This document shows positions 3,817-24,124 of a stretch of DNA of 32,839 nucleotides, in pieces. Each line of letters opens with the position of its first letter. Position 1 is the first letter of the stretch. The translations under genes were made by a program, and so were the position numbers. Below the pieces are notes generated by a model. That model ran no database searches, was not told the origin of the DNA, and saw nothing but the letters and a program-made list of their open reading frames with translations. The stretch comes from Pelagibacteraceae bacterium (GTDB lineage Bacteria; Pseudomonadota; Alphaproteobacteria; HIMB59; GCA-002718135): NCBI GenBank assembly GCA_018657885.1, contig JABHWG010000113.1, forward strand, positions 1 through 32,839. Direction: 5' to 3'.

Positions 3817-3853
3817 TATAGCTGTTATTCTACAATAATTTGCTCGTAAAAAT

Positions 3854-3893
3854 TTACTGTTAAATTAAAAATATTAGAATTTATTACTGTTAA
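3854..3893. promoter_or_regulatory. putA/regulator intergenic direct repeat TTACTGTTAA (3854-3863 and 3884-3893)
   Basis: Two identical 10-bp direct repeats spaced exactly 30 bp start to start in the divergent intergenic region; candidate Lrp/PutR binding sites (inference). Confidence 0.4.
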
Positions 3894-3950
3894 TATGTAT
3901 AATATTGATATAATCTCTTGTTAAAATATATAAATACAAGAATATTTATT

Positions 3951-5455: not shown

Positions 5456-5459
5456 TTAA

Positions 5460-7001
5460 TTATTTATTCTCCATCTTAAGATCACCAACAACAGTAACAT
5501 TTATTAATAAATTCTTACCTGGTAAATATGATAATGGCATATCGGACACTGCCAACAAATTAATCGTATCTGGATTGGCATTTCTTTTTATAGCAAGATT
5601 GGTTGCCTCATCTGTAACTTGTTTTATAGCAGTCTCCCTATCAATCTTGTCATCAATCAATATAACTTTTGATACTTGACCGCTGACCTGAGCTATTGCA
5701 GCACCAACTGCATTGGCTAAATCATTATGAGGTGGTTTTATAACATTCAGACCATCAATTTCATTATCAAGCATAACACTTCCACCACCAACAGCAATAA
5801 CAGGTATTTTTTCACTTGAAGTTCTTGCTCTCGCAACTTTATCTTCAACCATTTGATCCATTAAATTAATTATATTTTTTTTATTTTTTATTTCAGGAGC
5901 TTCTTTTGTACCTATCTTACATCTCCCATAAGAAACTGCTACATCACTTGCTGTAAGCACATCTCCTCCAAAAACTTTTGCCTTATCTGTTAATTCATGT
6001 CCAACTGATTGAGGACCTACTGTAATCTTCTCAGTATCAATTATAGAACCTCCTCCTAGCCCAAAACTGATTACATCTGGCATAGAAAAATTTGTTCTAA
6101 CATCTGCTACAGTAACATAAGTACCTGCTTGTCTAGGAAACCCATCCTTTACTTCTCCTACGTCAGTAGTAGTGCCTCCAACATCTACAACAAGTGCATT
6201 TTTTTCTTTAGATAAAAAAGCTGCGCCTCTCATTGAGTTGGTAGGTCCACAAGCAAAAGTAAGTACTGGTGAATCTATTACTTCAGAGGATTGAATTAGG
6301 GTACCATCATTTCTAGTAAAAAACATTGAGCATTTAAAATTCATTTTATTACGAAGTTCGTCAAATGACTCTACAACTTCTTTTGCTAATGGTTTTAAAG
6401 TTGCATTGATTAGGGTGGCGTTTTCTCTTTCTAACAATCCCATTCCACCAATATTTTTACTAAGAGAAACTTGTATATTTGGTGAATTTTTTTTTATTAT
6501 GTCAAAAGCTTCTTGCTCCATATCACCTCTCACTGTCGCAAAGACTGAACTTATGGCAATTTGATCACACCCTGCTTTTATTAATTCATTCAATGCAATA
6601 ATTATTTCTTTTTCATCTAATTTTGAAATCTCACTTCCATCCATTTCAAAACCACCTTTAACTAGTTGAAATTTTCCATTCATAGAATCAACTAATTCTT
6701 TTGGCCAATCAGCAAAAGGTAAAATAGACCCACCTGAAGGTAAACAAATTCTAATCAATCCTGTTTTAGCTAATTTTTTTCTTTGGACTATCGCATTTAC
6801 AAAATGAGTAGTGCCCACAATTAAGGCCTCAACATCTTTTGATTCTGTTTTAGCTTGATTAAGGGCAGCTGTAATTGCGTTTTCTACACCAGATAAAATA
6901 TCTTTAGTTGTAGGACTTTTTGCACCCCCTAAAAATTTTTCTGATTGCATTACTACTGCATCAGTATTTGTGCCTCCAACATCTACACCAATTCTTATCA
7001 T
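5460..7001 (-). CDS. hydantoinase/oxoprolinase family protein, short HyuA form (513 aa)
   Basis: ASKHA-type N-terminus MIRIGVDVGGTNTDAVVM, VGTTHFVNAIVQRKKLAKTG, VVDVGGTTTDVG, FGLGGGSIIDTE, PVIAVGGGSVML. Shorter than the two long HyuAs. Confidence 0.9.
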   Translation of the reverse strand: MIRIGVDVGGTNTDAVVMQSEKFLGGAKSPTTKDILSGVENAITAALNQAKTESKDVEALIVGTTHFVNAIVQRKKLAKTGLIRICLPSGGSILPFADWPKELVDSMNGKFQLVKGGFEMDGSEISKLDEKEIIIALNELIKAGCDQIAISSVFATVRGDMEQEAFDIIKKNSPNIQVSLSKNIGGMGLLERENATLINATLKPLAKEVVESFDELRNKMNFKCSMFFTRNDGTLIQSSEVIDSPVLTFACGPTNSMRGAAFLSKEKNALVVDVGGTTTDVGEVKDGFPRQAGTYVTVADVRTNFSMPDVISFGLGGGSIIDTEKITVGPQSVGHELTDKAKVFGGDVLTASDVAVSYGRCKIGTKEAPEIKNKKNIINLMDQMVEDKVARARTSSEKIPVIAVGGGSVMLDNEIDGLNVIKPPHNDLANAVGAAIAQVSGQVSKVILIDDKIDRETAIKQVTDEATNLAIKRNANPDTINLLAVSDMPLSYLPGKNLLINVTVVGDLKMENK

Positions 7002-7008
7002 TTATAAT

Positions 7009-8667
7009 TTATTTTTTATAACCGTAATATTTTTTTGCCTGTTCCTTAGTTATATATTGGTTTAGCAAATCACTTTTAATCATTTCTTTATTTCTTTTTT
7101 TAGGATCCCCAAAACCTCCACCATTACCAGTATAAATTCTTACAATATCACCTGGTTCTAAACCTAATCCAGTAACCACAGAATATTTTTCAATTTTTTT
7201 GTTTTTTCTAATTACCTCAATGTAGTTAGCACTTCCTTCTCTTCCTTTATTAAGCGACCATGGCAATGTTTTTGATCTTGTATAAGCAACTGAAACCCAT
7301 GCATTTTTTGATCTAACACGATAATCCATAATAATACCTTTGCCGCCATTGAATTTTCCTTCACCACCTTCTTGGTTGTTAAGTCTCATTTGATTAACAT
7401 ACAAACCATGTCTTGCCTCATGAATTTCTGCAGGAGTATTAAAAGTATCACCATGAAAGGCAGAAAAATTTGCACTCATTCCATCACCTGCAGCAGAAGC
7501 ACCCCATCCACCAATTTGAGGTTCGATAATAATAAAAGGTTCATTCGTATCAGGATGTGTACCTCCCATAAATGTCCCACATATAGAAGCAAAACTTCCA
7601 GCTGTTGATTTATCTGGATTAAGATGTGAGATTGTTTTCCAAATTAAATCATACGATCTAATATCAGTTTCATAATAAATACCTTGAGCTGCAGGTCTTA
7701 TTGGATTGAACATTGATCCTTCATCACAAATAACTTTAAGCGGTCTAAAAGTTCCAGCATTACAAATAAAATCACTTGAAGTAACGCCCTTGAAAGCCAT
7801 TTGAGCTGATACAACTGTCCCATCATAAGATGCATTATTAGGACCTGTGTCTTGTACTGGATTATTTCTTAAATCTACAATAAATTCTTTATTGGTAATT
7901 GTTACTTTTACTTGGATTTTTTTTCCATTATCCAAATAATCTTCTCCATAATACGTTCCATTTTTTAATTTTTTTAATGAATCTAATGATGAATTCTCTC
8001 CATATTCCATAAAAAGATCAACTGATTTTTCAAAAGTATCTCTGCCATATTTTTCTGATATATCCTTAATTCTTTTCTCTCCAACTCTTATGGATGCGAT
8101 TGCAGCCCACATGTCTCCTTTTGTATACTGAGGCACTCTACTATTAGAAATAATAATATCGATAACTGATTGAATTGGTTTTCCTTGATTAAATAATTTA
8201 ATAACTGGCAATTGTAATCCCTCTTGAAATATTTCTGTTGCATCTGCAGATATTCCACCTGGTGCCATTCCACCTAAATCAGGCCAATGTGCTATGTTTG
8301 CAGTCCATGCAATTCTTTTTTTTCCCGAGAAAACAGGCATCACAACTATAACATCATTTAAATGGGTTACCCCTCCATTATATGGGTCATTGGTTGCGAA
8401 AATATCTCCAGGATTTATATCCTTATCATCAAATTTTTTTAAAACTGCCTGAACAGCCTTATCACACATTGCAATAAAAGCTGGAATACCAGCACCTGAA
8501 GCAGCTATGTTTCCATTTGAATCAGTTACTGCAGTTCCAAAATCTAATACTTCATATATTATTGAACTCATTGCTGTTTTTCTCATTGCAATAAACATTT
8601 CATCACAAGCAGCTTGTAATGAGCTCTGAATTATTTCTACAGTAATCGGATCAATTTTTTTTGCCAT
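7009..8667 (-). CDS. hyuB: hydantoinase B/oxoprolinase family protein (HyuB)
   Basis: 552 aa. IDPITVEIIQSSLQAACDEMFIAMRKTAMSSIIYEVLDFGTAV, GDIFATNDPYNGGVTHLNDV, C-terminal GNGGGFGDPKKRNKEMIKSDLLNQYITKEQAKKYYG. Confidence 0.95.
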   Translation of the reverse strand: MAKKIDPITVEIIQSSLQAACDEMFIAMRKTAMSSIIYEVLDFGTAVTDSNGNIAASGAGIPAFIAMCDKAVQAVLKKFDDKDINPGDIFATNDPYNGGVTHLNDVIVVMPVFSGKKRIAWTANIAHWPDLGGMAPGGISADATEIFQEGLQLPVIKLFNQGKPIQSVIDIIISNSRVPQYTKGDMWAAIASIRVGEKRIKDISEKYGRDTFEKSVDLFMEYGENSSLDSLKKLKNGTYYGEDYLDNGKKIQVKVTITNKEFIVDLRNNPVQDTGPNNASYDGTVVSAQMAFKGVTSSDFICNAGTFRPLKVICDEGSMFNPIRPAAQGIYYETDIRSYDLIWKTISHLNPDKSTAGSFASICGTFMGGTHPDTNEPFIIIEPQIGGWGASAAGDGMSANFSAFHGDTFNTPAEIHEARHGLYVNQMRLNNQEGGEGKFNGGKGIIMDYRVRSKNAWVSVAYTRSKTLPWSLNKGREGSANYIEVIRKNKKIEKYSVVTGLGLEPGDIVRIYTGNGGGFGDPKKRNKEMIKSDLLNQYITKEQAKKYYGYKK

Positions 8668-10739
8668 TATTTTTTCTTTTGAGTGTTAATATGAAGATTG
8701 GCATAGTCATCAACTTTGCATCTTTGCCCAGGAAATACGACAACTGTTGTGCTAGAGTCTTCAACTATTGCTGGTCCATTAAAAACCATATTAGGTTCAA
8801 GTTTATCAAAATCGTATATATCTGAAATACGCTCTCCAAGTTGATCAAAATCAACTTTCCTTTTTGATTTAATTGCTTCTCTAACTTCTCTCCCTGTTTT
8901 TTTTCTTTTCTCCAGCTTGGGTTTTTCAATTTTAGCTACAGCAACTAGATGAAATTGTATAAGTTCTACAGGGTTATCTAAACTATAAGTAAATTCTTTT
9001 TCATACTGCTTATGAAAAGAAATAAGTATTTTATTTAGTTCTTTTTTATCATACGTACCACTAGGAAGTAAAACTTCTACAGAATGGTCTTGTCCCAAAT
9101 ATCTTAAACTAGCATAGCGCTGAAACTGAATTAAGTTTTTATGTATTTTTTCTTTTTTAAAATTAGAGATTGCTTTAGTTTCCATTTTTTTAAATGTTTC
9201 ATTTATTGAACCAAGTGAATCAATATCCATTTTATTTAGCTTAGTTAAAATAAAATCCCTTCTCAAGTCACTCATTAACATACCCCATGCTGAAAATACT
9301 GCAGAGTTTATGGGTATAATCACGTTAGGGATATTTAGTTCCATTGCTAAAGAGGTAGCGTGCATTCCACCACCACCTCCGAAAGCAACTAATGTAAAAT
9401 CTCTAGGATCATGGCCTTTGTTAACAGAAATTAATTTTAAAGCATTTGTCATATTATTATTTGCTATTCTAATAATACCTCTGGCAGTTTCAATTTTAGT
9501 TAATTTTAATTTTTTAGATAATGTGCTGATGTGTTTATCTACAGACTTAATATCAGCATTAACTTCTCCACCACAAAAATATGATGGATTTATTCTTTTA
9601 GTATATAAATTTGCATCAGTAGTAGTGATACTATTTCCACCTTTTCCATAAGATACAGGTCCTGGACTTGCACCTGCACTTTGTGGACCTACATGTAATT
9701 TTTTATAATCATCTACCCACGCTATACTTCCTCCGCCATTACCAATTTCAACAATATCTACAACAGGTAGCATTACAGGGTATCCAGCTGAGGTACGGTT
9801 TTTCTCGATCCAATAATTTGTATTAATTTTCACATTACCATCTTCTATTAATGAACATTTTGCTGTAGTGCCGCCAATATCAAGTGCTATAATATCTTTT
9901 ACTCCAATTAATTTTCCAATTTCAGCGGCTCCTAAAACGCCACTTGTTGGTCCAGATTCAATAATAGTTAAAGGTGTTTTTTTAGTACTTTCAAAAGTAT
10001 CTATACCTCCATTCGATTGCATGACATATGGATTGCCTTTAAATTTATATTTTTTAAGTTCAATAAATAAATTATCTAAATAATTTTTAGCTATAGGTTT
10101 CACATAAGCACAAAGTGCAGTTGTATTTGTTCTTTCATACTCTCTCCACTCCCTTGTAAGCTCACTAGAGGTAACTATTTCAAATTCAGGCCATTGTTGT
10201 TTTATTTTTTTTGCTAATACCTGTTCGTGTTTTGGATTTGCATATGAGTGTAGAAGGCAAATTGCAATTGATTTTACATTATGAGACTTAAATGATTTAA
10301 TAATTTTCTTAAGATCATTTAGCTGTAATTTTTCAATCTCCTTACCTAGAAAATCCATTCTACCAGGAACTTCAGTTCTTAGATATCTTGGAATAAATGG
10401 TTTAGGTTTTTTATAACGAAGATTAAAAAAATCAGGCCTATCTCCTCTTGCAATCTCTAAAGAATCTCTAAAACCTTTTGTAGTAATTAAACCTGTAACC
10501 GAACCTTTTCTTTCAGTTATAGAATTAATTATAACTGTTGTTCCATGTGCAAAAAATATAGCTTCAGAAATAGATATTCCAGATTTTTTTATAGCTTTAA
10601 ATACACCTTGTTCATAATTTGGAGGGGTGGTATCAGATTTTGCGTTAGAAATTTTTTTAGCTTTTTTTGTTTTTTCATCAATTTCAAAATAAACCAGATC
10701 AGTAAATGTTCCTCCAACATCTGTTGCCACTCTAATCAT
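8667..10739 (-). CDS. hyuA: hydantoinase/oxoprolinase family protein (long HyuA)
   Basis: 690 aa. MIRVATDVGGTFTDLVYF, FAHGTTVIINSITERKG, IALDIGGTTAKCSLI, IGNGGGSIAWVDDYKKLHVGPQSAGASPGPVSYGKGG, LVAFGGGGGMHA. Overlaps the downstream hyuB start by 1 nt (TAATG). Confidence 0.95.
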   Translation of the reverse strand: MIRVATDVGGTFTDLVYFEIDEKTKKAKKISNAKSDTTPPNYEQGVFKAIKKSGISISEAIFFAHGTTVIINSITERKGSVTGLITTKGFRDSLEIARGDRPDFFNLRYKKPKPFIPRYLRTEVPGRMDFLGKEIEKLQLNDLKKIIKSFKSHNVKSIAICLLHSYANPKHEQVLAKKIKQQWPEFEIVTSSELTREWREYERTNTTALCAYVKPIAKNYLDNLFIELKKYKFKGNPYVMQSNGGIDTFESTKKTPLTIIESGPTSGVLGAAEIGKLIGVKDIIALDIGGTTAKCSLIEDGNVKINTNYWIEKNRTSAGYPVMLPVVDIVEIGNGGGSIAWVDDYKKLHVGPQSAGASPGPVSYGKGGNSITTTDANLYTKRINPSYFCGGEVNADIKSVDKHISTLSKKLKLTKIETARGIIRIANNNMTNALKLISVNKGHDPRDFTLVAFGGGGGMHATSLAMELNIPNVIIPINSAVFSAWGMLMSDLRRDFILTKLNKMDIDSLGSINETFKKMETKAISNFKKEKIHKNLIQFQRYASLRYLGQDHSVEVLLPSGTYDKKELNKILISFHKQYEKEFTYSLDNPVELIQFHLVAVAKIEKPKLEKRKKTGREVREAIKSKRKVDFDQLGERISDIYDFDKLEPNMVFNGPAIVEDSSTTVVVFPGQRCKVDDYANLHINTQKKK

Positions 10740-12453
10740 TTAACACTACCTCAGGATAATATTTATTAATATATTCTTTAGATATATATTCTTGCTTATA
10801 GTCATCCAATACTTTTTCTTTTTGTCTTTCACTTGGATGTCCATAACCTCCTCCTCCTCCATTTTGTATCAAAACTTTATTTCCTTTTTTAATTAAAACT
10901 CTTGTGGCCTTTGGTATAGATTTTTTTGTTCCATCATCATTGATTAAGAAACAATTATTTGCCAACCCTTCCCTACCTTCATTTAAGCCCCAAGGCTCTA
11001 ACTCAGTTCTTTCACATACTGTAGTTGCAAAGGTATCCTCTAACATTTCTATTTCTATATTTACTCCTAATCCACCTCTATTTTTTCCTGCCCCACAGCT
11101 ATCTTGAATTAATTCTACACGTGTAACTAACCATGGATTCCGGTTTTCCCAAACTTCAGTGGGTGCAAACCTTGTTGCAGATTCTGCATGATGTAAGCAC
11201 GTTGCTCCATCTCCATGTACGCTACCACCTTGTCCTATAGGATGTGGAGATCCATCAGCCCAAGGCTCACCCGTTAACTTTTTTTGACCCCAATACACAA
11301 CAGCGTTTATACAACCACCACTACTAGCAGGAACTTTTTCTGGGTGCTTAGACCCAAGAGCCTTATAAAAAACTTCCATAGCTTGAAGTGCAGGCCATCC
11401 ATATAAGAAACACGGAGCAGGTGATAATGGATGAAAAAGCGTTCCTTTTTTTGTAATAACTTCAATAGGTCTAAAAAAACCTTCGTTAGGAGCTTCGTTA
11501 CTTCCTGCTAACATGCTCATAGCAACTCTTGCAGTTGATACTGTTGAAGGAAGAGGGCAATTAATTGGTCCATTTTGCTGAGGTGGAGCTTCTGACATAT
11601 CTAAAACAACTGAGTCATCTTTTATTAGGACTTTTACATCAAAGGGGACAGACCCTTCTTCAACACCGTTATTATCCATTTGCCCAGATCCAAAATATTC
11701 ACCATTAGGAATGTCTTTTAGATATTTTCTTACTATTTTTTCTCCTGCATCAAATATTTCTTCAACAGCTTCTCTAAATTTTTTTAATCCATATTTCGAC
11801 ACAACTCTTTTTAAAGCTCTCTCTCCTGTTCTTACACCTATCGCTTGAGCATTAATATCTCCTGCTACAGAGTTTGGAACTCTTGTATTAGCAATACACA
11901 TTTTAAAAATATCATTAACTAAATTTCCTTTACTATATAATTTAACCCCAGGATAAACTGTTCCTTCTTGAAAAACATCAACTGTATCTGTTGAGTAAGG
12001 TTCTTTACCTGCTATATCTAACCAGTGAGCTTTAATTGCAGTGTACGCAATTAGCTCTCCTTCAAAGAAAACTGGCATAACTAATGCCGCATCTTGTGGA
12101 TGTGAACCTGTGCCATATGGAGAATTATAAATTATAATATCTCCTTCATATAAGTTTTCCTCACCTCCAACACCTTTTACAGCCTCTTCAATGCAAAAGT
12201 TGAGAGTTCCCATAAAAAGAGGGAGGCTTGGAGCTTGTGATAACATTCTTAAATCTCTGTCATAAATTGCTGCAGCAAAATCTAATACTTCATAAATTAT
12301 AGGGGACATTGCTGTACGACATAACGCTCTTTTCATTTGTTCAGCTGCTGAGTTAAGACTATTTCGAACAATCTGAGTAGTGATGGGATCAACGTCAGTT
12401 TTTTGAACTTTTCTATCAATACCACATTTATAATGATGTAAATCTTTATTCAT
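10732..12453 (-). CDS. hyuB: hydantoinase B/oxoprolinase family protein (HyuB)
   Basis: 573 aa. DPITTQIVRNSLNSAAEQMKRALCRTAMSPIIYEVLDFAAAIYDRD, GPINCPLPSTVSTARVAMSMLAG, C-terminal NGGGGGYGHPSERQKEKVLDDYKQEYIS. 8-nt overlaps with both neighbouring genes. Confidence 0.95.
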   Translation of the reverse strand: MNKDLHHYKCGIDRKVQKTDVDPITTQIVRNSLNSAAEQMKRALCRTAMSPIIYEVLDFAAAIYDRDLRMLSQAPSLPLFMGTLNFCIEEAVKGVGGEENLYEGDIIIYNSPYGTGSHPQDAALVMPVFFEGELIAYTAIKAHWLDIAGKEPYSTDTVDVFQEGTVYPGVKLYSKGNLVNDIFKMCIANTRVPNSVAGDINAQAIGVRTGERALKRVVSKYGLKKFREAVEEIFDAGEKIVRKYLKDIPNGEYFGSGQMDNNGVEEGSVPFDVKVLIKDDSVVLDMSEAPPQQNGPINCPLPSTVSTARVAMSMLAGSNEAPNEGFFRPIEVITKKGTLFHPLSPAPCFLYGWPALQAMEVFYKALGSKHPEKVPASSGGCINAVVYWGQKKLTGEPWADGSPHPIGQGGSVHGDGATCLHHAESATRFAPTEVWENRNPWLVTRVELIQDSCGAGKNRGGLGVNIEIEMLEDTFATTVCERTELEPWGLNEGREGLANNCFLINDDGTKKSIPKATRVLIKKGNKVLIQNGGGGGYGHPSERQKEKVLDDYKQEYISKEYINKYYPEVVLND

Positions 12454-14491
12454 TTTTCATTTTTGTGTCTGTAATAATTAAATGATCCATTTTATCTTTG
12501 TTAACTATATAATTTTTATCAACATAGGTAACAGCAGTACTTTCTAAAATGATAGCTGGTCCTGAAAATTCTTTATCAATTTGTGATCTTTGAATAATTT
12601 GAAATTCCTCAAGCTGATCTGAATCAAAAGAATAACATTTAATTTTATCATTTGCTGATATTGCTAATTCTTCATTAATCTTTCCACTTCCTGTTTTTCT
12701 TGGAAGAGGTACTCTTAAAGAAGCTCTAATTGAAACAATTTCTATAACCGTATCTAACTTACTACCAAATGTTTTTTCATAATCATTAACAAACATTTCT
12801 TTGATTTTGTCTACGTTGCAGGTAATTTTACCATTTTTTTCATCAATAAGTTTAAGTGTTATAGTGTGTTCTTGACCCATCCAACGCATATCTAAAGATA
12901 TTTCTTTTATTTTTTCTAAAATTTTAAAATTAATTTTTTGTCTGTCCTCCAAATCTTGAAACAATCTATCTAAAATCGTATTACATTGATCAAGAGATTC
13001 TTGACTTAGTCTTAAAATTTTTGTTTGAGCCGTCATCTGTAAAAGATCTGCACCTAGCAATCCCCATGCTGAAAAATTTCCTGAGAAAGGTGGTATAATT
13101 ATTTCTTTAATATCTAATTCTTTTGCAATTAAATTTGACATTAAAGGTCCAGCACCTCCAAATGCTAAAAGCTTTAATTCACGAGGATCAATACCTTGTT
13201 CAATTGTAATTTCTCGAATAGCATCAGCCATATTTGCACTACTTATTTTTAAAATTCCTTTAGCAACCTCAAATGCAGAAAGGTTAATTTTTGAACCAAC
13301 AGATTTTAGAGCATTTTCTGCTAAATCTTTTTTCAACTTTAGTCCAGAAGCTAAATTTCCTTCTCCAAGCATTCCTAAGTAAAAGGCTGCATCTGTTGTG
13401 GTTGGTTCTACACCTCCCCTTCCATAACAGGCAGGACCTGGTTGCGCTCCTGAACTTCTTGGTCCTGATCTCAATAAACTACCTTCATCAAGATACGCTA
13501 TTGATCCACCGCCAGCTCCAATAGATCTTACATCAACCCATGGGGATTGGATTGGCAGCCCAACTATCCTTCCTTCAAATTGTATTTGTGGCCTCCCATC
13601 TAAAATTAAACAAGTATCAAAACTAGTTCCACCTACATCAGCAGTAACCATATTAATATTTTTAAAGGTTCTCGATAATTCTCCTGCGCCTTCTGCTCCT
13701 GCTACTGGCCCTGACATGATAGTTTCAAAAGGTCTTTCTTCAGCTTCATCAAATGTCATTGAGCCACTCCCTGATCTTGTTACCAAAAAGTTACCTTTGA
13801 AACCTAAACTTTTTAATTCATTTCTTAGATTATTTAAGTAATTAGACATTCTTGCTTTTACAAAAGAGTCAATTACTGTTGTTGTTGTCCTTTCATATTC
13901 TCGGTACTCACCAGATACTACTGAGGACAAGGAAATATAGCCTTCAAATCCAAATTTTCTTAAAAGTTTTTCAATTTTTTTTTCATGATCGTTGTTTGCA
14001 TAAGAATTAATTAAACATACTGCAATACTTGTGACACCTTCTTTAATAAAATATTTACAAGCTTTTTTTATTTCATCTTCATTTAAAGATATATGCACAT
14101 CACCACTTGCAAACATTCTTTCATTTAGTTCTAACCGTAAGTATCTTGGAACTAGAGGTTCACTTGGTTGCCAAAACAAATTGTACATTTCATCTCTATC
14201 ACCCCTTCTTATCTCAATTACATCTCTAAAACCTTTTGTGCATAACATTCCTACTTTTGATCCTTTTCTCTCCAGTAAAGCATTGAGACCCACTGTTGTT
14301 CCATGTAAAAAAAAATCAATTTCTTTAATTTTTTGTTCGTTTAAATTTCTTTTAACAACCTCTATTACTGCTTTCTGAGGTTCTAAGGGTGTGGTGGGTA
14401 TTTTATCAATAGTAATTGAGTTATCTCTTTCATTGTACATAATGAAATCTGTAAACGTTCCCCCAATATCTACACCTATTCTTGATGCCAA
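12446..14491 (-). CDS. hyuA: hydantoinase/oxoprolinase family protein (long HyuA), TTG start
   Basis: 681 aa. MASRIGVDIGGTFTDFIMY, LHGTTVGLNALLERKG, VTADVGGTSFDTCLI, IGAGGGSIAYLDEGSLLRSGPRSSGAQPGPACYGRGG. Start codon is TTG (minus strand) preceded by GGGAGG at 14501-14506 with a 9-nt spacer. Confidence 0.95.
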   Translation of the reverse strand: MASRIGVDIGGTFTDFIMYNERDNSITIDKIPTTPLEPQKAVIEVVKRNLNEQKIKEIDFFLHGTTVGLNALLERKGSKVGMLCTKGFRDVIEIRRGDRDEMYNLFWQPSEPLVPRYLRLELNERMFASGDVHISLNEDEIKKACKYFIKEGVTSIAVCLINSYANNDHEKKIEKLLRKFGFEGYISLSSVVSGEYREYERTTTTVIDSFVKARMSNYLNNLRNELKSLGFKGNFLVTRSGSGSMTFDEAEERPFETIMSGPVAGAEGAGELSRTFKNINMVTADVGGTSFDTCLILDGRPQIQFEGRIVGLPIQSPWVDVRSIGAGGGSIAYLDEGSLLRSGPRSSGAQPGPACYGRGGVEPTTTDAAFYLGMLGEGNLASGLKLKKDLAENALKSVGSKINLSAFEVAKGILKISSANMADAIREITIEQGIDPRELKLLAFGGAGPLMSNLIAKELDIKEIIIPPFSGNFSAWGLLGADLLQMTAQTKILRLSQESLDQCNTILDRLFQDLEDRQKINFKILEKIKEISLDMRWMGQEHTITLKLIDEKNGKITCNVDKIKEMFVNDYEKTFGSKLDTVIEIVSIRASLRVPLPRKTGSGKINEELAISANDKIKCYSFDSDQLEEFQIIQRSQIDKEFSGPAIILESTAVTYVDKNYIVNKDKMDHLIITDTKMKNE

Positions 14492-14529
14492 AATTTTTAT
14501 CCTCCCAAAATAAAATATTTAAGTTTACT

Positions 14530-14545
14530 ATGGTAACGCTACCAT
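14530..14545. promoter_or_regulatory. candidate LacI-family operator, site 1 (ATGGTAACGCTACCAT)
   Basis: Near-perfect palindrome with central CG in the divergent hyuA/hyuB intergenic region. Its reverse complement recurs exactly at 16359-16374. Confidence 0.8.
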
Positions 14546-14580
14546 GATAGAAATATTAATTCAACAAATATTATATTTTT

Positions 14581-16287
14581 ATGATCAGAACTTTTCAGTC
14601 TAAAACAAGTTATGAAAACATTGATGAAAACATTGATCCGGTATTAGTTGAAATAATCAGAAATAGTCTCAACTCAGCTGCTGAACAGATGAAGAGAGTT
14701 TTAATTAGAACTGCATTTTCTCCAATAATTTATGAGGTGTTAGATTTTGCAAGTGCAATTTATGATAAAAATTTTTGTATGCTTTCTCAATCACCAAGCT
14801 TACCTGGCTTTATGGGAACATTAAGTTTTTGTGTACAAGCTGCTGTAGAAGAAGTTGGGGGTGAAGAAAATTTATATGAGGGAGATATAATTTTATATAA
14901 CAACCCATATGGTTCAGGATCTCATTCTCAAGATGCAGCTATCGTTATGCCAGTATTTCTCAAACACAAAATATTAATTGGATACACAGCTATTAAAGCA
15001 CACTGGCTTGATACTGGTGGGAAGGAACCATACTCTACTGATACGGTTGATGTATTCCAAGAAGGAACTATTTATCCAGGTTTAAAGCTTTACAATAAAG
15101 GTCAACTTGTAGAAGACATTTATAAATTAATTGTCGCTAACTCACGAGTGCCTAAGGCTATAATTGGAGATCTTAATGCCCAATTAAATGGAGTCAAAGC
15201 GGGTGCTTCAGCTCTACAAAGGATTGTTAATAAGTTTGGTATTCAAACTTTTGATTCTTGTGTCTCTAAAATTTATCAACATGGAGAAAAATTGGTAAGA
15301 AAAACTATATCTAAAATACCTGATGGAAAGTATTCGGGATGGGGTCAAATGGATAGTAATGGTGTAGATAAGGATCCTGTTAAATTTAAAATTAATATAA
15401 ATGTAAAAGGATCTGATCTTGAGTTAGATTTTTCAGAAACTCCTGAACAACAAAATGGGCCAATTAATTGCCCTCTTCCTTCAACAGTTTCAAAGGCAAG
15501 AGTAGCATTCAGTATGATGGCTGGAAATGGAGAGCAGCCAAATGAAGGATTTTTTAAACCCTTAATTATTAAAACAAAACAAGGAACTATGTTTGATCCT
15601 ATTTCTCCTGCACCTTGCTTCTTAAATGGTTGGGCAGGGCTTCAGGTAATAGAAATAATATATAAAATATTGTCTGAAAAAATTCCTCACGCATTTCCTG
15701 CTTCAAGTGGTGGTTGTTTAGGAGCAGCAGTTTGGTGGGGTAAAAGAAAAAATAATAACGAGCCATGGGCTGACGGTTCTCCTCATCCAATTGGACAGGG
15801 AGGTTTTAATGGAGGTGATGGCATTACTTCGATGCATCATAATTCAGCTGGTACAAGAATCTCCCCAACAGAAATTTGGGAAAGTAGAAATCCTTGGCTA
15901 GTCAAAAAAATTGAATTAGCTCAAAATTCTTGTGGACCAGGAGAGTATAGAGGTGGTTTAGGTTTAGACCTAGAGTTTGAAATGTTAGAAGAAACATACG
16001 TAACTACAGTTGTAGAAAGAACTAAATTCCCTCCATGGGGTATAAATGAGGGAGGCGAGGGTAGAGCTAATAATGTAATTTTAAATAGAAAAAATGAATC
16101 TTCAAACGTACCAAAAAAAACAGGTTTGAAATTACATAAGGGAGATAGCTTGATCTTTAAAACAGGTGGTGGTGGTGGATATGGGAAATCATCATTAAGA
16201 TCAAATAAAAAAATTTTAAATGACTTAAAACAAGGTTACATATCCATTGAATATGCAAAAAAACATTATCCACAATTAAAAGTTTAG
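14581..16287 (+). CDS. hyuB: hydantoinase B/oxoprolinase family protein (HyuB), divergent copy
   Basis: 568 aa. DPVLVEIIRNSLNSAAEQMKRVLIRTAFSPIIYEVLDFASAIYDKN, GPINCPLPSTVSKARVAFSMMAG, C-terminal GGGGGYGKSSLRSNKKILNDLKQGYISIEYAKKHYP. Closely related to the 10732-12453 product. Confidence 0.95.
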   Translation: MIRTFQSKTSYENIDENIDPVLVEIIRNSLNSAAEQMKRVLIRTAFSPIIYEVLDFASAIYDKNFCMLSQSPSLPGFMGTLSFCVQAAVEEVGGEENLYEGDIILYNNPYGSGSHSQDAAIVMPVFLKHKILIGYTAIKAHWLDTGGKEPYSTDTVDVFQEGTIYPGLKLYNKGQLVEDIYKLIVANSRVPKAIIGDLNAQLNGVKAGASALQRIVNKFGIQTFDSCVSKIYQHGEKLVRKTISKIPDGKYSGWGQMDSNGVDKDPVKFKININVKGSDLELDFSETPEQQNGPINCPLPSTVSKARVAFSMMAGNGEQPNEGFFKPLIIKTKQGTMFDPISPAPCFLNGWAGLQVIEIIYKILSEKIPHAFPASSGGCLGAAVWWGKRKNNNEPWADGSPHPIGQGGFNGGDGITSMHHNSAGTRISPTEIWESRNPWLVKKIELAQNSCGPGEYRGGLGLDLEFEMLEETYVTTVVERTKFPPWGINEGGEGRANNVILNRKNESSNVPKKTGLKLHKGDSLIFKTGGGGGYGKSSLRSNKKILNDLKQGYISIEYAKKHYPQLKV

Positions 16288-16358
16288 AATTAATCAATTA
16301 TAAACCCTAAAATTTACTCTTTTGTACGTAAAAACAACATTGTTAAATATTTATATTC

Positions 16359-16374
16359 ATGGTAGCGTTACCAT
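16359..16374. promoter_or_regulatory. candidate LacI-family operator, site 2 (ATGGTAGCGTTACCAT)
   Basis: Exact reverse complement of site 1. The identity extends to 19 nt, TCATGGTAGCGTTACCATA. Lies 22 bp upstream of the likely ATG of the binding-protein gene (16397). Confidence 0.8.
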
Positions 16375-16396: not shown

Positions 16397-17977
16397 ATGA
16401 AAATATTTAAAATAAATATATTAGCTTTTTTAGTTACCTCATTATTTAGTTTTAGCATTTTTGCTGGGGGAACTCTAAGGCTAGACGAAGTTGCAATTGG
16501 GGAGGCGGACCCTGCAAAAGCTACCGACTTTGCTGATGGTATCATAATGGAGAATGTATATGACGCTCTTGTTACTGAACCTCAGGGTGGTGGACCAGTA
16601 ATTGGTAAACTAGCAAAGGACTGGGAAGTTAGCAATAATGGTACTACAATTACTTTTCATTTAAATGAAAATGTTAAATTCTCTAGTGGGAATGATATGA
16701 CTGCTGATGATGTAGTTTACTCTTATGAGAGATTAATGGGATTAAAACTTGGATGGTCATATCTTTTTGATGGTTGGGTTAAGGGAATAAAAAAAATAGA
16801 TAATCATAAAGTTCAATTTGAACTAAATGAACCTTACGCTCCTTTTATGTCCTCATTAGTTCGTTTTTATATTGTTGATTCAGAAACATTAAAAGCAAAT
16901 GAAAGTGATGGAGACTGGGGTCAGGAATATCTTCTTGCAAACTCAGCTGGTACAGGGGCATATTCAATTACTGCCCATGATCCAAATGTTGAAACAAGAA
17001 TGGCTAAAAACAATAACTATTTTTTAGGTATTGCTGAAATAGCTCCAAATGAAGCTATACTAAGATATAACTTAGATGCTCCAACTGTAAGAACTTTAAT
17101 TTCTAACGATGAGCATGACATAAGTAGTAACTGGCTACCTACAGATGTTAAAGCAGCAATTGCAGACTCTGGTGATAAGCTGGCAAAAGTAGTAAGTGCT
17201 GGTGGATGGTATTTTAAAATTAATACTACTAGAGCTCCATTAGATGATGTTAACTGTCGAAAGTCTCTTGCTTATGCACTTGATTATGACTCTCTTGTTG
17301 GAACTTTTCAAGTTACTGATGATATAGCTGCAGGTCAAAAAGCTAGAGGACCTATTCCTCAAGGAATGATTGGGTATTCTGATGATGTACCACTAGTGGA
17401 ATATAATTTAGATAAAGCTAAAGATTATTTATCTAAATGTAAGTACAGTGGTGATGATCTCAAAATTACTATTAATTGGATAGCAGAAGTTCCTTTTGAA
17501 GAATCATGGGCTCTAATTCTGCAACAAGGTGCTATGGCTATTGGTTATGAAGCTTCAGTAGAAACTTTACCATGGGCTGTTTTTACTGAGCAAGTTACTA
17601 AACCAGAAACAACACCAAATTTAAGTATTGTTGCAGTGCAGGCGCAGACACCTGATCCAGATGGATTAATATATAATATGTATCATTCTGCAGCAGCTGG
17701 TACTTGGCAATCTACTGAGTGGGTACAAGATGATAATATTGATTCAATGCTTAATGCTGGGAGAACAACGATTGATGGTCAAGAAAGAGTAGCCATCTAT
17801 GAAAGCTTTCAACAAGCTATTGTGGATATGCAACCAGACTTGTTCATTAGTGATTTAGTAACAGTATATGCTATGAGAGATGAAATCAATGCACCAACAC
17901 TTGAAGATTCAGCGACATATGGATTTTCAACTATGGCGCAAAACTTCTCTTTCAGATTAATGGAAGTTCCTAACTAA
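16397..17977 (+). CDS. ABC transporter solute-binding protein, family 5 (peptide/nickel/oligopeptide type), secreted
   Basis: ATG at 16397 preceded by AGGAGG (16387-16392). Signal peptide MKIFKINILAFLVTSLFSFSIFA. SBP_bac_5 features: LAKDWEVSNNGTTITFHLNENVKFSSGNDMTADDVVYSYERLM, NNNYFLG, RKSLAYALDYDSLV, QTPDPDG. The track start at 16322 (TTG) would place the operator inside the CDS and is less likely. Confidence 0.93.
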   Translation: MKIFKINILAFLVTSLFSFSIFAGGTLRLDEVAIGEADPAKATDFADGIIMENVYDALVTEPQGGGPVIGKLAKDWEVSNNGTTITFHLNENVKFSSGNDMTADDVVYSYERLMGLKLGWSYLFDGWVKGIKKIDNHKVQFELNEPYAPFMSSLVRFYIVDSETLKANESDGDWGQEYLLANSAGTGAYSITAHDPNVETRMAKNNNYFLGIAEIAPNEAILRYNLDAPTVRTLISNDEHDISSNWLPTDVKAAIADSGDKLAKVVSAGGWYFKINTTRAPLDDVNCRKSLAYALDYDSLVGTFQVTDDIAAGQKARGPIPQGMIGYSDDVPLVEYNLDKAKDYLSKCKYSGDDLKITINWIAEVPFEESWALILQQGAMAIGYEASVETLPWAVFTEQVTKPETTPNLSIVAVQAQTPDPDGLIYNMYHSAAAGTWQSTEWVQDDNIDSMLNAGRTTIDGQERVAIYESFQQAIVDMQPDLFISDLVTVYAMRDEINAPTLEDSATYGFSTMAQNFSFRLMEVPN

Positions 17978-18026: not shown

Positions 18027-19046
18027 TTGAACATTAAACTTTATTTATTACGAAGATTTTATAGTGCAGCAATTGTATTAATTGGTGTTTCAATATTAAT
18101 ATTTATCATTGCCAGAATGATACCTGGTGACCCTGCAAGGATGGCATTAGGGCCAACAGCTACTCAAGAAATGGTTGAGAAATATAGAGATAAATTGCAC
18201 TTAAATGACCCTATTCATATTCAATATTGGTTTTTTATTAAAGGCATCACAAAGGGTGATTTAGGAGAATCAGTTTATACTAAAAGAAAAGTAACCACTG
18301 ATGTATCTACATACTTTCCAGCAACTCTAGAATTAATTATTTTTGCTTCTCTAATTATGATTTTTGTAGGAGTCCCTTTAGGGATATTAGCAGGAAGATT
18401 TAAAGACAAAGCAATAGACAATATATCAAGATTTATTTCCTTACTTGGGGTTGTTACACCCAGTTTTGTTTGGGCAGTTTTTCTTATGATTATTTTTGCT
18501 TTTTATTTAGATATTTTACCTGTTGCTGGCAGATTATCACAAGATACTGTTGCTCCTGAAAGAATAACAGGTCTGATAATTCTTGATAGCATCATTAGAG
18601 GTCAATTTAATGTAACGATTGATGCATTAAAACATATTATATTACCTGCTCTTGCTCTTTCACTTGGTGCTCTAGGACAAGCCTCGAGATTAACAAGGTC
18701 AAATATTACTGAGGTCTATGATAAACAATATATAGAAATGGCGAGAGCATATGGTTACAATGAATTTAAAATTGCAACTAAATACGCTCTTAAACCTGCT
18801 ATGATTCCGACTTTAACTATATTAGGTTTAGATTTTGCGGCTATGTTGGGAAATGCTTTTCTTGTAGAGTTTGTTTTTGCATGGCCAGGTATTGCCAAAT
18901 ATGGGGTTCAAGCAATTTTATATAAAGACCTTAATGCAATTACTGCCACAACAATGATAATAGCTACTTTCTTTGTTTTTACAAATTTAATTGTTGATTT
19001 AATAGTGGCATATCTAAATCCAAAAATTAGATTGAGTGGAAAATAA
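18027..19046 (+). CDS. ABC transporter permease, DppB/OppB-like (TTG start)
   Basis: LLRRFYSAAIVLIGVSILIFIIARMIPGDPARMALGP, GQASRLTRSNITEVYDKQYIEMARAYGYNE (EAA loop), multiple transmembrane segments. Confidence 0.93.
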   Translation: MNIKLYLLRRFYSAAIVLIGVSILIFIIARMIPGDPARMALGPTATQEMVEKYRDKLHLNDPIHIQYWFFIKGITKGDLGESVYTKRKVTTDVSTYFPATLELIIFASLIMIFVGVPLGILAGRFKDKAIDNISRFISLLGVVTPSFVWAVFLMIIFAFYLDILPVAGRLSQDTVAPERITGLIILDSIIRGQFNVTIDALKHIILPALALSLGALGQASRLTRSNITEVYDKQYIEMARAYGYNEFKIATKYALKPAMIPTLTILGLDFAAMLGNAFLVEFVFAWPGIAKYGVQAILYKDLNAITATTMIIATFFVFTNLIVDLIVAYLNPKIRLSGK

Positions 19047-19891
19047 TGAAATTATTCAAATCTAGAGGCTGGTATAAATTTTCTAAAAATCCACTTTCTG
19101 TTTTAGGCTTATTAATTGTTTCATTAATAGTTTTGATGGCAGTATTTGCAAATTATTTAACTCCATTTCCTGAGCATGCAGGGCCTTTTGTAGATATACC
19201 AAATAAAATTAAATCTCCTTCATCAACTTACTTTTTCGGTACTGACAAGATTGGAAGGGACTCTTTTTCAAGGATAATTTTTGGATACAGAACATCGCTA
19301 TATTTAGGTGTAATTGTTTTATGCATTGCTGTTCCAATTGGAACAAGTCTTGGTTTAGTTGCTGGATATTTTGGAGGAAAAATAGATGCTATAATAATGA
19401 GAATAACAGATATTTTTTTATCAATTCCTCCACTTGTATTAGCTTTATCAATAATGGCATTTTTAAAACCTACTTTAACTAACGCCATGATAGCTGTATC
19501 AATGATGTGGTGGCCTTGGTATACTCGACTAGTCTATAATTTAACAAGATCTATTAAAAATGAAGGTTTTGTTGTTTCTGCTAGAATAGTTGGCGCTTCT
19601 AATTTTCATATTATTTTTAAAGAAATTTTACCTAATTGTAGCGCTTCACTAATTACAAAAATTACCTTGGATATGGGCTTTGTTATCTTAATAGGCTCAT
19701 CTCTTAGTTTTTTAGGCTTGGGTGTTCAACCTCCCACTCCAGATTTAGGGACAATGGTTTCACAAGGATCAAAATATTTACCTGATATTTGGTGGTTGTC
19801 AGTATTTCCTGGTCTAGCAATTTTAGTCATAGTACTTGGTTTTAACTTGTTAGGGGATGGTCTTAAAGATTTATTCGATGTAGAGTTATGA
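19046..19891 (+). CDS. ABC transporter permease, DppC/OppC-like
   Basis: YFFGTDKIGRDSFSRIIFGYRTSLYLG, EGFVVSARIVGASNFHIIFKEILPN, SSLSFLGLGVQPPTPDLGTMVSQG. Overlaps both neighbours. Confidence 0.94.
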   Translation: MKLFKSRGWYKFSKNPLSVLGLLIVSLIVLMAVFANYLTPFPEHAGPFVDIPNKIKSPSSTYFFGTDKIGRDSFSRIIFGYRTSLYLGVIVLCIAVPIGTSLGLVAGYFGGKIDAIIMRITDIFLSIPPLVLALSIMAFLKPTLTNAMIAVSMMWWPWYTRLVYNLTRSIKNEGFVVSARIVGASNFHIIFKEILPNCSASLITKITLDMGFVILIGSSLSFLGLGVQPPTPDLGTMVSQGSKYLPDIWWLSVFPGLAILVIVLGFNLLGDGLKDLFDVEL

Positions 19892-20742
19892 CAATACTTT
19901 CTATTAAAAATCTAGAGGTTAAATTTAAGCATTTTGAAGGAATTACAACTGCACTAAAAAAAATATCATTAAATATAAAACATGGTGAAAAAGTTGCATT
20001 GGTAGGAGAATCTGGTTCTGGTAAATCTGTTACAGCTAGAATGATATTAGGATTATTATCTAATCCAAATATTAAAAAAAGTGGAGAAATATTTTTCGAA
20101 AACAAAGACCTTTTGAAAGAAAGTAGTTCACAAATAAAAAAAATTCGAGGTAACGATATATCAATGATTTTTCAAGACCCAGTCTCATCCATGAATCCCT
20201 TTTTTACTGTAAGAAAGCAAATGTTACAGGCACTAGAAAATCATAACAAAAACTATGATAAAAAAAATATAGATGAATATTTTATTAATCTTCTTCGTGA
20301 TGTAAAAATTGAAGACCCTCAAAGAGTTCTTAATTCATACGCTTTCCAATTAAGTGGGGGTATGGCTCAGAGAGTAATGATCAGTATGGCTATGATTAAC
20401 AAGCCAAAATTAATACTCGCAGATGAACCTACAACCGCTTTAGATGTTACGGTTCAAAAAACAGTATTAAAAATAATGAAAGAAATAATTAGTCAAAAAA
20501 AAATGTCTATGTTGTTGATTAGTCACAACTTGGGGGTTGTAAGAGAATTTGCTGATAGAATTTATGTAATTTATCAAGGATCGATTTTAGAAGAAGGAAC
20601 CACTGAGCAAATTTTTAATTCACCAGGACATATTTATACACAAACACTTTTACGAGCTATTCCTAAAATCAATAGTTCACAACTACCTAGTCTTAATGCT
20701 GAAAATATTAATTATTTAAGCCAACCTAAATTTACTCATTAG
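19888..20742 (+). CDS. ABC transporter ATP-binding protein, DppD/OppD-like
   Basis: Walker A GESGSGKSV, signature LSGGMAQRV, Walker B LILADEPTTALDV, H-loop LISHNLGVV. ATGA overlap with the upstream gene. Confidence 0.95.
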   Translation: MTILSIKNLEVKFKHFEGITTALKKISLNIKHGEKVALVGESGSGKSVTARMILGLLSNPNIKKSGEIFFENKDLLKESSSQIKKIRGNDISMIFQDPVSSMNPFFTVRKQMLQALENHNKNYDKKNIDEYFINLLRDVKIEDPQRVLNSYAFQLSGGMAQRVMISMAMINKPKLILADEPTTALDVTVQKTVLKIMKEIISQKKMSMLLISHNLGVVREFADRIYVIYQGSILEEGTTEQIFNSPGHIYTQTLLRAIPKINSSQLPSLNAENINYLSQPKFTH

Positions 20743-20744
20743 AT

Positions 20745-21527
20745 ATGTCAGAACCTTTATTAAAAATACAAAATGTTAAAAAAATTTTTAAAGTAGGCTT
20801 TTCTAATGTTATTGCTGTAAACGATGTTAGCTTTAATATTGAAAAACATGACTCAGTGTCAATTGTGGGAGAGTCAGGATCAGGTAAAACAACTTTAGCA
20901 AATTTAATTCTTGGGATTGAAGAACCCACCGCTGGTACAATTTTATATAATGACAAAAAAATTAATTTTAACGATAAAGGATTAAGAAAAAAAATTCAAT
21001 TCGTTCAACAAAATCCCTTATCATCTCTAAATCCAAAAAAAACCATTTATCAAACTTTAGAATTACCACTTAAAATTCATAATATTTGTCCTCGAGAAGA
21101 TGTAAAAAGTAAAATAATAGAATTATTAAGATATGTTGATTTAGATCAAAGTTACCTGGAGAGACATCCATATTCTTTATCAGGTGGGCAAAGACAACGA
21201 ATATCAGTGGCAAGAGCTCTAGCTTGTGAACCAGAAATAATAATTTTTGATGAACCTACTTCCGCTTTGGATGTTTTAATTCAATTAAAAATTCTAAACT
21301 TACTTGCTGAAATTAAAGAAAAACTAAATCTTACATATATTTTTATCACTCATGATCTGGCAGTAGTAAGAAATATTTCAGATAAAACAATAGTTATGAA
21401 TAAAGGAAATATAGTTGAAATGAATGATACACAAAAGGTGTTTGAGTCTCCAAAACAAGAATATACAAAAGAATTAATAAGATCAATTCCAACAATTACT
21501 GATGAAGAGGAGGCTGCAAAACCATGA
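20745..21527 (+). CDS. ABC transporter ATP-binding protein, DppF/OppF-like
   Basis: Walker A GESGSGKTT, signature LSGGQRQRISVARAL, Walker B IIIFDEPTSALDV, H-loop FITHDLAVV. Confidence 0.95.
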   Translation: MSEPLLKIQNVKKIFKVGFSNVIAVNDVSFNIEKHDSVSIVGESGSGKTTLANLILGIEEPTAGTILYNDKKINFNDKGLRKKIQFVQQNPLSSLNPKKTIYQTLELPLKIHNICPREDVKSKIIELLRYVDLDQSYLERHPYSLSGGQRQRISVARALACEPEIIIFDEPTSALDVLIQLKILNLLAEIKEKLNLTYIFITHDLAVVRNISDKTIVMNKGNIVEMNDTQKVFESPKQEYTKELIRSIPTITDEEEAAKP

Positions 21528-22012
21528 ATAAATTAGAAAAAGAAATTTATAATATTTATTTAAAATATGAGAGCCATGAAACTGTCATTAAAAAAGTAGT
21601 TGCATTAATACGCAAAGAAATAGGTTTCAAGTTATTAACTTTCATGATTTTTAGTAACAATCAAAAATTTGCAAAAAGAATATATTCTTCAGATGAAAAT
21701 AAATATCCAATTGGCAAATCTAAAAAATTACCAAACAATTATTGGGCTGTTATGACTGTACAAAAAAGACGCTCTTTTATTGGTAATAACAAAAAAATAA
21801 TAGAAAAATATTTTTATGATCATAAAATCATTACTTCACTTGGCTGTGAAGCAATTCTTAATCAAGTTGTAACTTATAATAAAAAAACTATCGGATGTAT
21901 TAATATTTTACACAAAAAAAACTATTTTACAAAAATACATCAAGAGAAAATGAATATTATTTCAAAGTGTGTAGTGGCTCTTTTCTTAGATAAACAAAAG
22001 GAAATTAAATAA
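21524..22012 (+). CDS. small GAF-like domain protein
   Basis: 162 aa, overlaps both neighbours. C-terminal half GCEAILNQVVTYNKKTIGCINILHKKNYFTKIHQEKMNIIS resembles a GAF fold (strand 'kkTIGcInil'). Assigned by pattern recognition only. Confidence 0.6.
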   Translation: MNKLEKEIYNIYLKYESHETVIKKVVALIRKEIGFKLLTFMIFSNNQKFAKRIYSSDENKYPIGKSKKLPNNYWAVMTVQKRRSFIGNNKKIIEKYFYDHKIITSLGCEAILNQVVTYNKKTIGCINILHKKNYFTKIHQEKMNIISKCVVALFLDKQKEIK

Positions 22013-23115
22013 TGAATAATAGAGTAGAAAAAATTTATAAAATTCTTGATAATTCAAACCTAGATGCTGTAGCATTAGTCCCAGGATCAAACTTTAAATA
22101 CATAACTGGTGGAAATTTTCATCTGATGGAAAGGCCTACAACTCTAATAATTACTAAAAAAAGAGAATTAATTGCTATTCTGCCATCATTAGAAGTTGAC
22201 AGTTTTAATAAACTTGGTCTTTCTGCAAATGTAATAAGCTGGCATGATAAAAATGGTTACAACGATGCATTTAAAGAAGCGAGTGAAATTATTGGAGATA
22301 TAAAAATAATAGGCGTCGAAGGACAAAGAATCAGATTTTTTGAAACAGAAGCCTTTAAAGAAAATTTTTCTAAAATAACTCTATTAAACTTTCACAAGGA
22401 AATATCTTCCATAAGACTTAATAAAGATAAAGAAGAGGTAGATTATTTAAGTAAAGCAATTAATATTTCTGAAGTTTCTCTAGAAAACACCTTAAATTAT
22501 ATAAAAATTGGGATGAGTGAACTTGAGGTTAAACAGTTTCTAATCCAGCAACTATATCAAAATGGGGCTGAAGGTATTTCTTTTGATCCAATTGTATTAA
22601 GTGCTGCAAATTCTGCTCTTCCTCATGGACATTCCTCTGAAAATAATAAATTAAAAAAAGGTGATGCCATTTTATTTGATTTTGGAGGAACATACCAAGG
22701 TTTCAATGCAGACATTACAAGAACTTTTTTTCTAGAAGAAATAAATGAAATACAAAAAAATGTTTACAATAACGTACTTGAAGCAAATTTAATTGGAATT
22801 AAAAATTCAATTATACCTAAAACTATGCATGAAATTGATGACTCAACTACTAATGTTTTAGAAAATGGAGGATTTAAAGAATTTATTGTCCATAAAACTG
22901 GACATGGTTTAGGTTTAGATGTGCATGAAGATCCATATATCGTAAGAGGTAATCACTCTAGCTTAGAAGAAGGCATGATAATTACAATAGAGCCAGGCCT
23001 CTATTTACCTGGTAAATTTGGAATAAGAATAGAAGATGATGTTTTGATTACAGACAACTCTCCAAATGTTCTTACAAATTTTTCTAAAGAAATAAGAATA
23101 ATAAAAAATGATTAA
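22012..23115 (+). CDS. M24-family metallopeptidase (Xaa-Pro peptidase / PepQ-like)
   Basis: 367 aa. All five metal-ligand motifs appear intact: DFGGTYQGFNADITRTFF (two Asp), HKTGHGLGLDVHEDP (His), ITIEPGLYLPG (Glu), IRIEDDVLIT (Glu). Confidence 0.92.
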   Translation: MNNRVEKIYKILDNSNLDAVALVPGSNFKYITGGNFHLMERPTTLIITKKRELIAILPSLEVDSFNKLGLSANVISWHDKNGYNDAFKEASEIIGDIKIIGVEGQRIRFFETEAFKENFSKITLLNFHKEISSIRLNKDKEEVDYLSKAINISEVSLENTLNYIKIGMSELEVKQFLIQQLYQNGAEGISFDPIVLSAANSALPHGHSSENNKLKKGDAILFDFGGTYQGFNADITRTFFLEEINEIQKNVYNNVLEANLIGIKNSIIPKTMHEIDDSTTNVLENGGFKEFIVHKTGHGLGLDVHEDPYIVRGNHSSLEEGMIITIEPGLYLPGKFGIRIEDDVLITDNSPNVLTNFSKEIRIIKND

Positions 23116-24124
23116 AAAAAATGCAACAATCATTGATGTGGCAAAACTTGCTAATGTAGGGACGATGAGTGTTTCAAGATTTTTTAAAAATTCTTCACTT
23201 GTTTCTCCACAACTTCAGAATAGAATAAGTGAGGCAGCAAAAAATTTATCCTATACCCCAAATCCTATTGCGTCATCTCTTGCCTCCAGAAACACAAAAA
23301 TAATTCCTATTTATATTCCATATCTTCGATTTGCAGCTATTCATTATATGAGAAGTATAAACAAAGTTTTACACAAACAAGGTTTTCAAAATTTTTTACT
23401 TAGCAATGACGGTATATCAAGCGAAGAAAAAATATTTGAAAATATACTAAAATGGAACCCTCAAGGATTAATAATAGTGGGAAATATTACTTCACGAAAT
23501 GTCAGAAAAAAACTTATGGAAATAAAAATTCCTTTGGTAGAAACAGCTACAAGTAATCCAGTAGATACATTTGTTGGTGTTGACTATGAAAATGCTGGTG
23601 TTCGTATGGCAGATTATTTGATAAAAAAAAATTATAATAACATTGCTTTTGTTGGAACAAGTTTGGAGTCTAAATCTTTACACACTTCTCTTATCTATAA
23701 AGGCTTTAAGAAAACAATTCAAAAACACGGTATGAAAATTAGTCAATTAATAAACTATAAGGAAAAAGAAAAAGACAATCTGCTAACAAAGAGTCAAAAT
23801 CCTGGTGCAGACTCTATGAGTAAAATTATTTCCTCTAAAGAAAAAATTGACGTAGTTGTTTATGCAGATGACTTATTTGCTTTAGATGCTCATATTTTTT
23901 GTAAAAAAAATAATATTAAAATAAAAAAAGATATTAGTCTTTCAACTTTTAGTGGAACTATACCTGAAATATTCGATGTTAATCCATCAATTACATCCAT
24001 AGATATGGATCATAAAAAAGTAGGTTTACTTGCTGCAGAATTATTAATTAAAAAATTAAATAATAAAACTCATAAAAAAATTAACTACATTGAATCCAAT
24101 TTTATTATTGGAGGAAGTGCATAA
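23108..24124 (+). CDS. LacI-family transcriptional regulator (GntR(Eco)-like HTH)
   Basis: ATIIDVAKLANVGTMSVSRFFKNSSLVSPQLQNRISEAAKNLSYTPNPIASSLASRNTKII is a LacI-type HTH plus hinge, followed by a periplasmic-binding-like domain (VGVDYENAGVRMADYLIKKNYNNIAFVGTS). Confidence 0.95.
   Translation: MIKKNATIIDVAKLANVGTMSVSRFFKNSSLVSPQLQNRISEAAKNLSYTPNPIASSLASRNTKIIPIYIPYLRFAAIHYMRSINKVLHKQGFQNFLLSNDGISSEEKIFENILKWNPQGLIIVGNITSRNVRKKLMEIKIPLVETATSNPVDTFVGVDYENAGVRMADYLIKKNYNNIAFVGTSLESKSLHTSLIYKGFKKTIQKHGMKISQLINYKEKEKDNLLTKSQNPGADSMSKIISSKEKIDVVVYADDLFALDAHIFCKKNNIKIKKDISLSTFSGTIPEIFDVNPSITSIDMDHKKVGLLAAELLIKKLNNKTHKKINYIESNFIIGGSA

Follow-up and report, generated by a model that had tools for sequence, protein, structure and literature searches.

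Two inverted 16-bp palindromes as predicted operators of a GntR-like LacI-family regulator in a hydantoinase and importer gene cluster

The cluster, the two sites and the candidate regulator

A gene cluster for hydantoinase-type enzymes and a peptide-type importer in an uncultured alphaproteobacterium raises the question of which protein, if any, acts at two matched palindromes located at its head. We analyzed the window, a stretch of 32,839 nucleotides which is the entire contig C140 of the genome G000 (1.63 Mb, 84% complete). The comparisons described below make it very probable that the cluster's own regulator, a GntR-like member of the LacI family (23108-24124), uses the two 16-bp sites as its operators. 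The original prediction had assigned them to this protein as LacI-type operators, and four computational tests speak in its favor: co-occurrence of the sites with the regulator gene, their conservation compared to the flanks, their absence from syntenic clusters in which the LacI gene is missing, and the presence of the same operator upstream of distantly related LacI-family genes.

The leftward operon, on the reverse strand, begins with hyuA1 (Hydantoinase_A, 12446-14491, with a TTG start assumed at 14491), whose product scores 450 bits with the NCBIfam model of caprolactamase alpha, below the 1000-bit cut-off. It continues with hyuB2, hyuA2, hyuB3, hyuA3 and the gene of an S-Me-THD/DUF917 protein (4391-12453); family matches cover hyuA3 and the DUF917 protein, and the other genes were assigned from open reading frames and synteny. 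On the forward strand, hyuB1 (Hydantoinase_B, 14581-16287, ATG start; Pfam PF02538, 503 bits) lies between both sites. The importer operon, on the same strand, starts with a family-5 solute-binding protein (16397-17977; PF00496, 225.7 bits), followed by permeases and ATPases of the Dpp/Opp type (18027-21527, assigned from protein sequences and synteny with relatives), a 162-aa protein (21524-22012, an open reading frame with no Pfam or NCBIfam match), an M24 peptidase/creatinase-like protein (22012-23115, Pfam) and, as the last gene, that of the 338-aa regulator (23108-24124), the first 8 bp of which are shared with the M24 gene. This gene content, with three HyuA, three HyuB, DUF917, a Dpp-type importer and M24, points to lactam, hydantoin or peptide-like substrates.

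Several features of the cluster and its surroundings deserve a separate mention. The 162-aa protein is retained in all clusters read that far, save for a rearranged contig of the relative G026. The DUF917 protein (4391-5455) reaches 107 bits with the S-methyl-thiohydantoin desulfurase models, below the 450-bit cut-off, and its gene adjoins a short HyuA (5460-7001), which makes a thiohydantoin/hydantoin link possible. Beside the cluster (769-4388) an Lrp-family regulator is encoded divergently from a proline-oxidising protein, designated PutA-like by its sequence, and the same pair is found in G020. In G062, an Asp/Glu/hydantoin racemase family gene (L098:5654-6535, 94.5 bits) and a second ABC importer, of the BPD_transp_2 type, are located near the cluster.

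Predicted operator 1, ATGGTAACGCTACCAT at 14530-14545, lies in the 89-bp gap between the divergent hyuA1 and hyuB1, 38 bp from the start of the former and 35 bp from the start of the latter. Predicted operator 2, ATGGTAGCGTTACCAT at 16359-16374, is placed in the 109-bp gap that separates hyuB1 from the importer operon; 22 bp separate its end from the ATG of the binding protein (16397), with AGGAGG in between. Neither site is assigned to a strand. Both 16-mers match exactly as predicted, with 0 mismatches, and the proposed 19-nt identity is likewise there (TATGGTAACGCTACCATGA at 14529, its reverse complement at 16357). Each site is a 16-bp even palindrome with 7 of 8 pairs matched and a CG centre, which agrees with the view that they resemble LacI-family operators, described as even palindromes of 16-22 bp with a central CG (PMC4052901); the proximity to start codons expected of such operators is also seen at both (38, 35 and 22 bp). 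The claim of opposite orientation holds insofar as the reverse complement is exact, but in a near-palindrome this amounts to a flip of the only asymmetric base pair (positions 7/10). When read toward hyuA1 and toward the importer, respectively, sites 1 and 2 are alike in orientation and surroundings. The AAATATT-like flanking tracts are present, but the DNA is AT-rich and the tracts are not strictly conserved in relatives. As had been stated, the window contains no third copy: the nearest sequence has 3 mismatches and is situated inside atpA at 28241. No separate copy of the operator stands ahead of the regulator gene itself.

The product of 23108-24124 belongs to the LacI family by its Pfam matches (PF00356, 48.5 bits with a cut-off of 27; PF00532, 61.3; PF13377, 52.5) and consists of an N-terminal LacI HTH and a periplasmic-binding-protein-like effector domain (Peripla_BP_1/3). 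Its HTH had been called GntR-like, and the alignment of its MSVSRFFKN with the MTVSRFLRN of E. coli GntR bears this out. The top NCBIfam model is the P. aeruginosa-type GntR (168 bits, cut-off 400), and the model of the gluconate repressor GntR gives 96.7 bits (cut-off 433). Both scores are far under the curated cut-offs; orthology to GntR (gluconate) was rejected on this ground, and the regulator is therefore called GntR-like and not GntR.

Predicted mode of control

According to the mechanism that we propose, a regulator dimer would place its hinge helices into the central CG, and its recognition helix would read the half-site ATGGTA. On site 1 the dimer would occupy the promoter region of hyuB1 and of the divergent operon headed by hyuA1; on site 2, with 22 bp left to the start codon of the binding protein, it would block transcription of the importer operon. 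The regulator is probably self-controlled, because its gene is the last one of the importer operon. The regulator would be released by a small molecule, for which the imported substrate or its hydrolysis product is the probable candidate. Binding, repression and not activation, autoregulation and a lactam-, hydantoin- or peptide-like effector are what we infer from the sequences. The predicted result is a compact two-operator regulon in an uncultured alphaproteobacterium, in which one response would join six hydantoinase/oxoprolinase-type genes, the DUF917 protein, the Dpp-type importer and the M24 peptidase. This narrows the search for the substrate: a compound able to release the repressor is likely to be that substrate, or the product made from it.

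Effector sites of the family typically contain an arginine (LacI R197, PurR R196) and an aspartate (LacI D274), but in all three orthologs (3/3) the alignment places I and S at these positions. The regulator thus does not keep the arginine and aspartate of a sugar-responsive member. E. coli GntR also departs at the aligned positions, and for this reason the substitutions do not prove a non-sugar ligand.

It is unlikely that the regulator activates from these sites instead of repressing. Some LacI-family members, such as FruR and GntH, are indeed activators, but site 2, the end of which is only 22 bp from the start codon, is for this reason probably located within or downstream of the core promoter, where a bound protein would block RNA polymerase. 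A scan for sigma-70 promoters gave matches no commoner than in shuffles, none of them clearly assignable.

Slightly less probable still is an addition to the operator reading, namely that one repressor assembly bridges both operators and forms a 1.83-kb repression loop across hyuB1. The sites are identical, and their centre distance is 1829 bp in the window and 1827 bp in G026. However, the sequence of the regulator stops at residue 338, in line with the end of E. coli GntR, and does not have the C-terminal tetramerisation extension of E. coli LacI, so the loop would need another mechanism. Moreover, a loop is not needed to account for two sites, as each is already located at a promoter region of its own. 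The suggestion of a loop over about 1.83 kb, made in the original prediction, is thus left unsupported.

Conservation and distribution of the sites

We followed the distribution of the sites in 110 genomes of the family, our own and 109 others. Close regulator orthologs (75% identical) are encoded in two of the 109, G026 (AG-439-A19) and G098 (AG-447-J18). The sequence ATGGTARCGYTACCAT occurs in 3 of the 110 genomes only, exactly those with the LacI ortholog, at the equivalent promoters. G026 carries both operators in equivalent places; in G098 operator 2 is present, and the contig ends within hyuB1, so that operator 1 falls off the contig. Operator 2 is identical in the window and both relatives. 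Such co-occurrence would arise by chance about once in 216,000 cases if the genomes were independent; they are not, since the three are close relatives and site 1 of G098 is off the contig, and we therefore read it as about two independent lineages. Close orthologs outside the genus were absent from 386 genomes of the class, where the best matches were about 30%, and a scan of genome contigs with the regulator returned only the relatives G026 and G098, plus weak Vibrio matches. The G026 contig (L025 / L030, G026:C24) differs from the window and from G098: its DppD gene is joined directly to ATP synthase genes, and its LacI gene lies on the other strand. This arrangement is probably a chimera from single-cell amplification, or else an inversion.

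Both sites agree between the window and G026 at 16/16 positions, compared to 88% and 75% identity in the near flanks (20 bp per side), 55% and 48% in the far intergenic sequence, and a 33% match at the four-fold third positions of hyuB1. Neutral positions between these two genomes look saturated. The conservation reaches partly into the near flanks, as would be expected if promoter elements lie there. A lack of conservation and many random genomic copies had been named as grounds against the original prediction, and we observed neither: our own genome (1.63 Mb, 84% complete) contains no further exact copy, and its three copies with 2 mismatches are all within long open frames. A scan of our own and the 109 other family genomes for the regulon, as had been proposed, found the operator confined to the promoters of the cluster and to regulator-bearing genomes. 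We also considered ATGGTATCGATACCAT, found in ten relatives, as a second regulon and rejected it: it is a single orthologous stretch (KYGIDTM) in a reading frame adjoining a NagA-like gene.

Relatives with the cluster but without the regulator form a clean natural control. Nine further genomes contain a hyuB1 ortholog (74-78%) and a syntenic hyuA/hyuB/importer cluster, and the LacI ortholog is absent from all nine. In the seven of them where both gaps were read, no sequence comes closer to the operator than 6 to 8 mismatches per gap; the other two show no exact match.

Most of the LacI-less clusters (L099, L100, L102, L104, L105) have in common an element other than the operator, of roughly AAG(C/T)TATCAGATG(C/A), near the hyuA1 start in the HyuA1-HyuB1 gap; in L104 it is seen ahead of the binding protein as well. 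A similar element, TATCAGATACTA, precedes the binding-protein gene in G133. Counts of TATCAGATRNTA exceed those of its reversed control several-fold in nearly all of the 16 genomes examined. The element of the LacI-less clusters is possibly the site of another regulator.

A tentative evolutionary scenario, which we find conceivable but a little short of probable, is that a LacI-family repressor left sugar sensing for a lactam-, hydantoin- or cyclic-peptide-like compound. It would have been gained (or kept) together with both operators in three sampled species only, within one uncultured alphaproteobacterial genus, and the cluster of the relatives would be under a different control element.

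The same distribution makes it improbable, a shade more so than the loop, that the sites serve as operators for a different LacI-family protein, one from another part of the genome. Our own genome, 84% complete, does contain at least two further LacI HTH genes (C103, C150), but these have VT and PS as recognition pairs, and another LacI protein found in G026 has QS. These pairs differ from the TM of the regulator, and the cluster's own protein is thus the best candidate. LacI-family genes are, moreover, widespread in the genus, yet ATGGTARCGYTACCAT occurs in 0 of the 107 genomes without the regulator ortholog.

That the sites are palindromes arisen by chance, or form a structural element (a terminator hairpin, for example), can practically be dismissed: exact inverted 16-mer pairs of any kind are indeed frequent in AT-rich DNA (71% of 300 Markov-1 simulations with the dinucleotide content kept), but pairs which in addition are palindromic to at least 7/8 around a CG centre appeared in 0/300, neither site was listed by the terminator scan, and the sites are conserved against saturated neutral sites and missing where the regulator gene is missing. 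The palindromic CG-centred form is found in three 16-mers of the window only, both operators and one A/T-rich sequence.

Recognition residues and comparison with known systems

In the GalR numbering of PMC2978694 the alignment gives T15 M16 S17 V18 S19 R20 for the recognition helix. A published rule connects R at AA20 with G at NT-6 and a hinge L with the CG centre (PMC2978694). The aligned regulator and the sites agree with both parts, as both half-sites carry the G, and the sites fit the backbone (T)G-A-CG-T-C(A) of the same study; that code was built on TVSR-class helices, and the SVSR helix of the regulator is outside that class. E. coli GntR (KM) and L072 (AM) have GTTA half-sites and not GGTA; therefore, the code supports T at NT-4, but not uniquely G at NT-5.

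Outside the family, only four genomes among the 386 scanned in the class contain the 16-mer: in two it is directly upstream of LacI-family genes, in G388 (AA15-16 = AI) and G278 (PM), and in two it is inside open frames. G388 has two copies of the GGTA form at the start of its own LacI-family gene, 32 bp apart, and G299 (AI) has two at the equivalent gene start with a spacing of 33 bp, one copy containing a mismatch. Sites of the TGGTAGCGCTACCA type are found near the own starts of the GntR-like homologues L068 and L071, at a spacing of 32 to 33 bp, in agreement with the published spacing peak of 32 bp (PMC4052901). The pairs TM and PM with GGTA would be new data points for the recognition code.

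Nearly 90% of the catalogued LacI-family members are local regulators of sugar pathways (PMC4052901); hydantoin, oxoproline and peptide are not mentioned in the main text of that study, and the literature that we searched yielded no relevant report of hydantoinase genes under a LacI-family regulator. Local control by the cluster's own LacI-type repressor, as predicted here, is well supported by the genomic comparison and would be of an ordinary kind; it would stand out mainly by its non-sugar gene content in a family that normally responds to sugars. The local regulons of PMC4052901 likewise have an even CG palindrome near start codons and the regulator inside the regulated cluster. G388, G299 and G278, all from other Alphaproteobacteria, resemble the window in having ATGGTAGCGCTACCAT or TGGTAGCGCTACCA beside the start of a LacI-family gene, but their sites are perfect palindromes in other gene neighbourhoods, their pairs are AI and PM, and the protein of the window shares only 28-31% identity with those of G388 and G299. 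E. coli LacI and the lac operators share the fold family and the CG-centred recognition logic; contrastingly, the window regulator is without the tetramerisation tail and its operator without the intervening base. The parallel drawn by the original prediction with the E. coli GntR operator is right: the sequence of that operator is ATGTTACCGATAACAG (PMC10450161), and the gntK-gntR gap shows half-sites ATGTTA compared to ATGGTA in the window. Both regulators are LacI-family proteins with M at AA16 and closely similar helices, 16-bp even palindromes and local regulation; E. coli GntR has the pair KM and T at NT-5, the sole half-site difference, where the window has TM and G. E. coli GntR controls gluconate genes, whereas the regulator of the window is predicted to act at hydantoinase and peptide-type importer genes.
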